Shown here piece by piece: positions 13,035-15,760 of a DNA stretch of 64,000 nucleotides. Location: assembly GCA_009846005.1 (NCBI GenBank), contig VXYL01000068.1, positions 64,451 to 128,450 on the forward strand, written 5' to 3'. The stretch comes from Gammaproteobacteria bacterium (GTDB lineage: Bacteria; Pseudomonadota; Gammaproteobacteria; Pseudomonadales; Azotimanducaceae). The notes beneath the pieces are model-generated. The model searched no databases. It saw only the letters and a program-made list of their open reading frames with translations, and was not told the origin of the DNA. Each line of letters begins with the position of its first letter. Position 1 is the first letter of the stretch. The translations under genes were made by a program, and so were the position numbers.

Positions 13035-13307
13035 TCAATAGTGATAACGGCACTGAACGACAATACACCTGCCGTTCTCGACCTTGTAGACGAAGCGGTG
13101 CTCCTTGGTGATCCGCCGTGACCAGTAGCCAGCCAGCTCGTGCTTCAGCGGTTCCGGGTTTCCGATGCCTGCGAACGGCTGACGGACGCAATCGGCGACT
13201 ATTCGCGCGACTCGCTCTGCAACCTTTCGGTCGTTCTGAACCCAGTACTGGTAGTCAGCCCAGGCTTGGCGCGAGAACGCGACAACGGCTTCGTTCTCGG
13301 CTGGCAC
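13035..13307 (-). CDS. yoeB: Txe/YoeB family mRNA interferase toxin (90 aa)
   Basis: Toxin of a type II toxin-antitoxin pair; YoeB is a ribosome-dependent endoribonuclease of the RelE superfamily. Family features are FSRQAWADYQYWVQNDRKVAERVARIV, the GIGNPEPLKHELAGYWSRRI block and the C-terminal HRFVYKVENG...CRYHY, which ends in the expected His-Tyr catalytic tail. The GTG start at 13307 directly abuts the antitoxin TGA (13310-13308), indicating translational coupling. The N-terminal MPAENEAVVA is slightly longer than in Escherichia coli YoeB. Expression should be repressed by the antitoxin through the palindrome upstream of yefM. Confidence 0.92.
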   Translation of the reverse strand: MPAENEAVVAFSRQAWADYQYWVQNDRKVAERVARIVADCVRQPFAGIGNPEPLKHELAGYWSRRITKEHRFVYKVENGRCIVVQCRYHY

Positions 13308-13583
13308 TCACCGTTTCTCTTCGATCGACCCATCCGAAAGCGTGGCAGTGACGACTTCGCCGGCCTCCACTTCGGCAATGGCTTGTCGGAGACGTTCGGC
13401 GTTCAAGGGCGAACGCAACAGGTGATACGTCTCCATCATGGAGTCGTGCTCGGACTTCGCCATCATGACGACCGGTTCGCTCGTCTTCCGCGTGATGACC
13501 ACGGCAACACGGTCCTCGATGACCGTGTCCATGACCGCCTTCAGATTCTGCCGTGCTTGCGTGTAGTTCAGGACGCGTTCCAC
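13308..13583 (-). CDS. yefM: YefM/Phd family antitoxin (91 aa)
   Basis: Antitoxin partner of YoeB. The N-terminal DNA-binding and dimerisation part reads MERVLNYTQARQNLKAVMDTV; the C-terminal part (SEHDSMMETYHLLRSPLNAERL) is the toxin-wrapping region typical of YefM. The GTG at 13583 is chosen over a TTG at 13604 because TTTGGAGG lies 5 bases upstream and the protein then begins at the conserved NYTQAR region. It is first in the operon, with yoeB abutting. The 20-bp palindrome at 13597-13616 sits just upstream of the start, where YefM-type autorepression would act. Confidence 0.92.
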   Translation of the reverse strand: MERVLNYTQARQNLKAVMDTVIEDRVAVVITRKTSEPVVMMAKSEHDSMMETYHLLRSPLNAERLRQAIAEVEAGEVVTATLSDGSIEEKR

Positions 13584-13596
13584 AATGCCCTCCAAA

Positions 13597-13616
13597 ACGT
13601 ACAATTAATTGTACGT
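13597..13616. promoter_or_regulatory. Palindromic operator of yefM-yoeB
   Basis: Perfect 20-bp palindrome with half-sites ACGTACAATT and AATTGTACGT, centred about 23 bp upstream of the antitoxin GTG. The E. coli YefM operator also has TGTAC-containing palindromes, so autoregulation is a reasonable inference. Confidence 0.7.
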
Positions 13617-14079: not shown

Positions 14080-14212
14080 GGCCCCACGATACCGCATGAT
14101 TGAAGGCGCTTGCGGTATCCCTGTGCTCGCGGCCGCAGATGGGTGCCGCTTCCGGTCGGCGTTCTGACCTGGTGTAAGCTCACGTTCGTTCCAAGGCAAA
14201 GGGAGAAGCGCC

Positions 14213-14683
14213 ATGATCGCAGTCGGGGATGTCGCTCCCGATTTCACGCTGCGAAGCCACGATGGCGAAGAGGTGAGCCTCGCTGGGTTCAAAGGCGACA
14301 AATGGGTCGTGCTACACACCTTCCCGCTGGCGTTTACCGGCGGCTGAAGTAATCAAACTTCGAACTTCAACCGTGCGTTGAAGCAATTCTCGGAAGCCGG
14401 CGCTGCGCTCATCGGCCTAAGCGTCGATTCCGGCCCGGCATTACGGGCCTGGTCGGGGGCCATGGGGGGCGTTCGACATCCCCTGTTGGCGGATTTCTGG
14501 CCCCACGGTGCCGTCGCGACCTCACTCGGCATTTTCAACGAGGCTGCGGGGATCGTGAACCGCACGCTCATGATCATCGATCCCGACGGCGTGGTCCGGC
14601 ACACCGAGGCCCATCAGGGCACGCTGCCTGATCCGGCCGCGGCGTTGGACAAGCTGAAGTCGCTGCAGGCGGGTATGCCCTAG
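14213..14683 (+). CDS. Peroxiredoxin, probable selenoprotein with in-frame TGA at codon 45
   Basis: AhpC/TSA-type thiol peroxidase of 156 residues. The reading frame runs MIAVGDVAPDFTLRSHDGEE through FPLAFTGG, meets TGA at 14345-14347, and continues in the same frame as SNQTSNFNRALKQFSE to TAG at 14681-14683. The TGA stands exactly where peroxiredoxins have the peroxidatic Cys (PxxxTxxC: P38, T42, residue 45), so selenocysteine is the natural reading. A SECIS-like hairpin follows at 14362-14389. The conserved Arg (VNRTLMIIDPDG) is present, and there is no other Cys, so it would be a one-Sec enzyme reduced by an external thiol. GGGAG precedes the ATG. A disabled pseudogene is the alternative, but the intact second half and hairpin argue against it. 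Confidence 0.85.
14362..14389 (+). promoter_or_regulatory. Bacterial SECIS-like hairpin after the TGA codon
   Basis: Stem CTTCAAC (14365-14371) pairs with GTTGAAG (14377-14383) around loop CGTGC; a lower GAA/TTC helix (14362-14364 with 14387-14389) closes it over a three-base bulge. The loop G at 14373 is 25 nt past the TGA, within the spacing known for bacterial SECIS elements. Confidence 0.75.
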
Positions 14684-14716
14684 CGGACAGGCGAGGTGTT
14701 CCGGCGGCGACCGAGG

Positions 14717-15760
14717 TCATGGCGCTGCGGTCGGGTCGTCGCTGACGCTTACCAGCGTCTTGCCGAAGTTCCCGCCGGCGAGCATGGCGCTGAATGCCGC
14801 CGGTGACTGCTCGAGACCTTCGCGGATGTCTTCGCGGTACTTGACGGCGCCGTCTCGGATCCAACCCGCCATCTCGTCCAGGAATCGGTCCTGATGTTCG
14901 GCGACGAAGTCCCTGACGAAAAGGCGATGCACCGCGACCTTCTGGCGATCGAATACGGACCGGCCGGTCTCGGCCCAGACGGCGCCCGGGTCACCGCCGT
15001 CCGTATTGCCGTATTGCGAGATCATGCCGCACAGCGAGATCCTGGCGTTGCGGTTGAAAAGCGGCAACACCCCTTCGAAGACGTGTCCGCCAACGTTCTC
15101 GAAGTAGACATCGACGCCATCCGGACAAGCGGCGCTGAGGTCGTCCGGATAACTTCGGGAACGGTGCGACACGCAGGCGTCGAGGCCGAGTTCCTCGACC
15201 ACGAAGTCGCACTTCGCGGTGCTCCCGGCGATGCCGACGACTCGGCAACCCCCCAGCTTGGCGATCTGTCCCGCTGCTTGGCCGACACCGCCGGAGGCGG
15301 CGGAGACCACGACGGTTTCCCCCGGTTGCGGCTGACACTGCACCGCTATGCCGGAGTAGGCGGTGAGTCCGAGCATGCCGAGGACGCCGACGGCCGTGGA
15401 GATCGGCGCGACGGCGGGGTCGAGTTTGCGAGGAAACATGTAGCCGAAGACGTCGATGTTCCGTCCGGTCAGGCCGTAGAGTTGCCAGCCGTTGGTGTTG
15501 AAGAGGAAGTCGCCCCCCTGGTATTCATCGGCACGGGACCGCACGACTTGGGAGACCGTGCGGCCATGGCAGACATCGCCCACGGCCTCCGCTCCGCTAC
15601 GTCGGCGACCCCACTGGTAGGGGTCCATGGATAGATAGACGGTACGGGTGAGTGCCTGGCCGGCCGCGGGTTCGGGTATCGCTTCGTCGCCGAGGACGAA
15701 GTCTCCATCCGACGGCCAACCCGCGGGCGGACGCCTCGCCAGTCGCCAGACCCGGTTCAC
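14717..15760 (-). CDS. NADP-dependent oxidoreductase, MDR/PTGR-CurA type (347 aa)
   Basis: Zinc-free medium-chain reductase of the leukotriene-B4 dehydrogenase/CurA group, which reduces activated double bonds with NADPH. The N-terminal catalytic fold has YLSMDPYQWGRR, the equivalent of the family's DPYMRGR motif. The Rossmann domain has VVVSAASGGVGQAAGQIAKL with the AASGGVG nucleotide loop, and DVYFENVGGHVFEGVLPLFN follows, also a family signature. GTG at 15760 begins MNRVWRLARRP; no strong ribosome-binding site is seen. It converges on the selenoprotein gene. An enone or quinone substrate is likely; the exact one cannot be told. Confidence 0.87.
   Translation of the reverse strand: MNRVWRLARRPPAGWPSDGDFVLGDEAIPEPAAGQALTRTVYLSMDPYQWGRRRSGAEAVGDVCHGRTVSQVVRSRADEYQGGDFLFNTNGWQLYGLTGRNIDVFGYMFPRKLDPAVAPISTAVGVLGMLGLTAYSGIAVQCQPQPGETVVVSAASGGVGQAAGQIAKLGGCRVVGIAGSTAKCDFVVEELGLDACVSHRSRSYPDDLSAACPDGVDVYFENVGGHVFEGVLPLFNRNARISLCGMISQYGNTDGGDPGAVWAETGRSVFDRQKVAVHRLFVRDFVAEHQDRFLDEMAGWIRDGAVKYREDIREGLEQSPAAFSAMLAGGNFGKTLVSVSDDPTAAP

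Follow-up and report, generated by a model that had tools for sequence, protein, structure and literature searches.

A predicted selenocysteine-containing AhpE-type peroxiredoxin with an in-frame TGA at its peroxidatic position

The peroxiredoxin gene and its in-frame TGA

We analysed a 64-kb stretch of DNA, apparently gammaproteobacterial and referred to here as the window, together with the rest of its genome and with related genomes, and we attempted to explain a peroxiredoxin gene that is interrupted by an in-frame TGA (Table 1). The reading frame begins with the ATG at 14213 and ends with the TAG at 14681-14683, and the TGA at 14345-14347 is its sole interruption. When the TGA is read through, the resulting 156-residue protein matches the Pfam domain AhpC-TSA with 107.4 bits (cut-off 26, E 5.9e-31) and carries the active-site motif FPLAFTGGU, i.e., PxxxTxxU, in which U is residue 45. 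The domain and the PxxxTxx(C/U) motif together identify the protein as a peroxiredoxin. The first-pass annotation, which was made from the letters of the sequence, had placed a TGA at the peroxidatic Cys of an otherwise whole peroxiredoxin, and the reading frame, the Pfam match and the alignment with Cys45 of AhpE agree with this. Its remark that there is no further Cys, from which it proposed a one-Sec enzyme, was also correct: apart from the predicted selenocysteine (Sec) position, the translation has no such residue. Among the 28 aligned rows that have the TGA (the window and 27 loci from named genomes), another Cys was absent in 24, one was present in L068, L071 and L077, and two were found in the frameshifted L079. 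The shorter frame from 14378 that had been anticipated under the standard code is present as well and opens with TTG. Standard annotation of a Sec peroxiredoxin gene such as this one is probably truncated, or the gene is missed.

Table 1. Features of the peroxiredoxin locus (positions refer to the window)
Feature	Position	Strand	Basis
Predicted Sec-containing AhpE-type peroxiredoxin gene	14213..14683	+	156 codons (one of them TGA) and stop; translation, Pfam match, similarity to AhpE
Predicted Sec codon TGA, residue 45, peroxidatic position	14345..14347	+	Aligns with Cys45 of AhpE; TGA in 27 of 30 named loci
Shine-Dalgarno-like GGAGA, 5' of the ATG	14202..14206	+	Read from the sequence
Shorter ORF under the standard code, TTG start	14378..14683	+	ORF list
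Putative bacterial SECIS hairpin	14365..14383	+	7-bp stem CUUCAAC/GUUGAAG; published limits, conservation

Selenocysteine machinery and other Sec candidates in the same genome

The genome that contains the window is a draft assembly of 4.96 Mb in 106 contigs and is 97% complete. Profile searches of this genome revealed selA (C6:112835-114151, 528 bits), selB directly behind it (C6:114190-116025, 377 bits), selD on contig C72 (246 bits) and a tRNA-Sec gene (C92:43-132, 69.5 bits), each above its cut-off; there is no tRNA gene within the 64-kb window. Of 14 control genomes, the cut-off was passed by one for selA, by two for selB, by two for selD and by five for tRNA-Sec. Because the RNA model for tRNA-Sec was thus the least specific, it matters that ARAGORN independently called the gene on C92 a tRNA-SeC with the anticodon tca (UCA). 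Between the selB match and the end of C6 there are 140 bases, and the tRNA-Sec gene lies at the start of C92; the two genes may be neighbours that were split by the assembly. The first-pass annotation had implied that this lineage encodes SelA, SelB, the SelC tRNA and SelD, and all four genes were found; the occurrence of the full selA/selB/selC/selD set in one genome is among the features by which bacterial selenoproteins are recognised. The selD match lies inside an ORF of 723 residues (L014:1399-3570), the first half of which looks like an NADH dehydrogenase and recalls the Ndh-SelD fusion described in the accessible text of the GOS paper (PMC2398784).

An inner TGA was present in four of the 26 AhpC-TSA matches of this genome, including the peroxiredoxin gene. 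In the other three, L089 (contig C44), L091 (C34) and L100 (C16), the in-frame TGA falls at WUPFC, WUPFC and WUPYC, respectively. Judging by these motifs, they are likely UxxC selenoproteins, and UxxC is a pattern that the available sections of PMC9312934 list for Prx-like selenoproteins. With three further genes of this kind, it thus seems that the genome makes use of its Sec system. These findings bear on the possibility that UGA is decoded as some other residue through a changed genetic code or a suppressor tRNA, for which there is nothing beyond the in-frame TGA itself. We consider it very improbable in a genome in which selA, selB, selD and tRNA-Sec are all present and the inner TGAs of the AhpC-TSA genes are not scattered but occur at TxxU and UxxC.

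Conservation of the TGA codon

A search of 117 genomes, the window's own included, gave a match at E 1e-10 in 61 of them. In 15 of the 117 the best match had at least 64% identity; each of these matches contains one TGA, and all 15 genomes belong to the window's own family. G017 was the sixteenth genome with a TGA in its best match, at 42% identity. All 16 TGA genomes have selA, which was found in 70 of the 117 genomes overall. The TGA peroxiredoxin of G017 (L039) has a hairpin of its own, and its loop, CCAAU, is without the usual early G. Four genomes of the same genus (G003, G009, G012 and G013) possess selA and gave no peroxiredoxin match at E 1e-10, which could mean that the gene was gained or lost inside this genus, or that bins are incomplete (completeness is 74% for G009). 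When 369 genomes sampled evenly across the class were searched at E 1e-22, nothing except the window's own genome was found.

A second set, named genomes that partly overlap with those of the first search, provided 31 loci. Thirty of these cover the codon, which is TGA in 27 and Cys in three, as counted in a scan that used only the peptide patterns WVVLH[TS]FP and HPLL[ASG]DFW and that Cys relatives with neither pattern escape. The Cys-bearing loci, L082-L084, are 39-43% identical to the window protein. Together with the solved AhpE they are the Cys homologues at the same column that the first-pass annotation had named as support, and an in-frame UGA that aligns with the Cys of homologues is a further hallmark of bacterial selenoproteins. 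The 27 TGA loci come from bins labelled Gammaproteobacteria or Pseudomonadales, one labelled Deltaproteobacteria and five labelled Chloroflexota, all of them metagenome bins in which single labels may be wrong. In an alignment of 13 proteins, the region 3' of the TGA has invariant columns throughout its length.

Two other explanations have to be weighed against this conservation. The UGA could serve mainly as a selenium-dependent switch: when selenium is low, translation would end at codon 45, with the truncated product or the turnover of the mRNA being what matters. Termination generally competes with Sec insertion at UGA, and this general background is what speaks for a switch; nothing was found that favours a function of the short product, and the part behind the TGA is conserved as protein, so that we assign this explanation a very low probability. 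Still less probable is that the TGA stems from a sequencing error or from a nonsense mutation, with Cys as the true codon or the gene as a decaying pseudogene, even though TGA is one base away from the Cys codons, the assembly is a draft and one relative looks frameshifted, since TGA occupies the same codon in the 27 of 30 named loci and in all 15 genomes at 64% or more (overlapping sets) and since the invariant columns continue beyond it. The relative in question is G001, whose locus appears as both L038 and L079; its frame seems to shift past about residue 112, through either an assembly error or decay.

The putative SECIS hairpin

According to the first-pass annotation, a hairpin with a G-containing loop 25 nt downstream of the TGA matches a bacterial SECIS in its position and shape. 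The stem is formed by 14365-14371 and 14377-14383, and the loop CGUGC (14372-14376) starts 24 nt 3' of the UGA. The limits of the published bSECIS model, including an energy of -7.5 kcal/mol, were taken from the accessible part of PMC13188914, and those for loop, stem, spacing and early G were applied by script; the hairpin lies inside all four. Its energy is borderline, at -7.4 kcal/mol when 47 nt after the TGA were folded and -8.9 kcal/mol with 52 nt. A fold of 81 nt was not above chance (z -0.41, 70 of 200 shuffles equally good). A fitting stem of at least 7 bp was found at 136 of the 1360 TGAs on both strands of the window and in 13.1% of 20000 synonymous recodings, and by both measures the hairpin alone is not above chance. 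Rfam returned nothing between 10000 and 20000 at E up to 1. The hairpin of the window sequence by itself is weak evidence.

The hairpin rises above chance because it is kept across relatives. The 17 bases TTCAACCGTGCGTTGAA (14366-14382) are identical in 25 of the 28 TGA rows and are absent from all three Cys rows. They stand at a constant offset of 21 nt from the first base of the TGA in these 25 rows and are retained down to 59% protein identity with the window. In L061 and L078 one loop base is altered, which adds a C-G pair, and L074 is without the 17 bases yet has a fitting 7-bp stem with the loop GGUC. When L074 is omitted, the longest invariant run in the 20 distinct rows consists of these 17 bases (the second longest has 5 nt), and 43 columns have an invariant residue (Met and Trp excluded), five of them with an invariant codon, which are exactly the hairpin codons. 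This codon invariance is as clean as it is because of the rows left out, i.e., L074 and those dropped by hand as near-copies or broken (L054, L061, L062, L064, L067, L078, L079 and L081); dropping L061 and L078 hid their single loop-base change, although the count over 28 rows includes both. With L074 added, a single codon is kept in two of 41 invariant-residue columns. Across all 26 full-length rows it is kept in one of 40, a hairpin codon, and the longest invariant run, 5 nt, lies outside the hairpin. Outside the hairpin in the same genes, CGT accounts for 14% of the Arg codons and TTG for 17% of the Leu codons.

Pair counting over 24 rows (23 distinct) showed that 96.3% of the cells were paired, a value that was reached in seven of 500 shuffles; in slid positions it was at most 48%. 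Changes on both sides of a pair occurred in three cells and two pairs (two pairs in 15 and three cells in 36 of 500 shuffles). The covariation score was matched by 81 of 500 shuffles and the pair types by 497. The stem is therefore frozen and not covarying, with slight covariation at most. The conservation of the hairpin is the strong evidence for this putative SECIS element. From the first-pass claim, the fit of loop, stem, spacing and early G stands and has gained support from the conserved sequence; the match in the single sequence, with its borderline energy, does not carry the claim.

Relationship to AhpE and to known Sec peroxiredoxins

Among the best 60 of 132 matches to solved peroxiredoxins, the best seven distinct sequences are all Mycobacterium tuberculosis AhpE (Rv2238c/MT2298), with 112-116 bits compared to 62 bits for the next, and this top full-length similarity assigns the window protein to the AhpE subfamily. 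The top match (Rv2238c; PDB 1xxu, 4x0x and others) spans residues 1-151 at 116 bits; the PLAFTG stretch is common to both proteins, and AhpE Cys45 aligns with the UGA. M. tuberculosis AhpE, which is titled a 1-Cys peroxiredoxin, was 41% identical in the fold match and differs in having Cys in place of the predicted Sec and in belonging to another phylum. The AlphaFold model of the window protein was mediocre (mean pLDDT 73.8, residues 40-44 below 50), and the fold search that used it placed AhpE first, at an rmsd of about 7 and with low confidence at the active site. In the available portions of two papers, the AhpE subfamily is described from Actinomycetales (PMC6155587) and from Deinococcus (PMC8945050).

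Sec peroxiredoxins with TxxU or PxxxTxxU are established, with 253 sequences in the GOS table (accessible text of PMC9312934, PMC13188914 and PMC2398784), and their motif, Sec position and Pfam domain are all as in the window protein. In the text of these sources that is accessible, they are treated as a single family in which no AhpE branch is named, and one table assigns them to COG1225 (Bcp). The NCBIfam entries PrxU (NF040737) and Prx-SUH (NF045827) are peroxiredoxin families with the same fold, and the thiol peroxidase Prx-SUH is listed as a selenoprotein. The window protein falls outside both, scoring 63.1 against a cut-off of 270 for PrxU and 32.1 against 298 for Prx-SUH. In the accessible text of the open-licence literature that was searched, no Sec clade of AhpE is described from Gammaproteobacteria and Chloroflexota, which is no proof of absence.

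Proposed function and wider distribution

We are highly confident, on the strength of these comparisons, in predicting that the gene encodes a one-Sec AhpE-type peroxiredoxin in which UGA is read as Sec and which would be recycled by an outside thiol. The Sec genes, the conservation of the TGA, the Cys homologues and the conserved hairpin support the Sec peroxiredoxin proposed initially, and the likeness to AhpE refines it. SelB with its Sec-tRNA would bind the hairpin just 3' of the UGA at 14345, and selenocysteine would be inserted at residue 45. The selenolate would then attack the peroxide in the peroxiredoxin pocket, of which Pro38, Thr42 and Arg117 are presumably the usual residues, and the selenenic acid that is formed would be reduced by an outside thiol. 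As there is no second Cys, an internal disulfide is impossible and the reduction of the oxidised Sec must come from outside. In M. tuberculosis, AhpE is reduced by mycothiol or mycoredoxin, according to the available part of PMC8945050. This reductant is not expected here, and by analogy with it our guess is that a glutathione- or glutaredoxin-type system may be the electron donor.

In a tree of 30 rows (the 32 aligned rows minus the cut L078, the frameshifted L079 and the fragment L081, plus L039), the five Chloroflexota rows all fall to the same side of a branch (97/98); the tree fixes neither the root nor the direction of any transfer. We put at about even the chances that these sequences form a Sec-only AhpE branch, with no close Cys member found, that is spread over Gammaproteobacteria and Chloroflexota (SAR202/Dehalococcoidia) and moved between the phyla with a nearly fixed SECIS read by the SelB proteins of both. 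The subfamily and the phyletic setting of this Sec peroxiredoxin are mildly surprising. The gene would add a Sec counterpart to the AhpE subfamily, and a hairpin that is identical across two phyla offers a test of the recognition specificity of SelB; the general picture of selenium biology is unchanged by it.

Neighbourhood of the gene

A TonB-like neighbour was found in four of 28 loci and a zinc-type dehydrogenase in three of 28 (E 1e-6, flanks of up to 1500 bases), and therefore there is no widely conserved neighbour. A crude scan of codon composition for ORFs with TGA read-through listed 18 candidates in the window, the peroxiredoxin gene included. One at 14522-15760 extends beyond the end of the dehydrogenase gene. 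Another, at 13035-13604 on the minus strand near the peroxiredoxin gene, is a YoeB-like toxin and Phd/YefM antitoxin pair.
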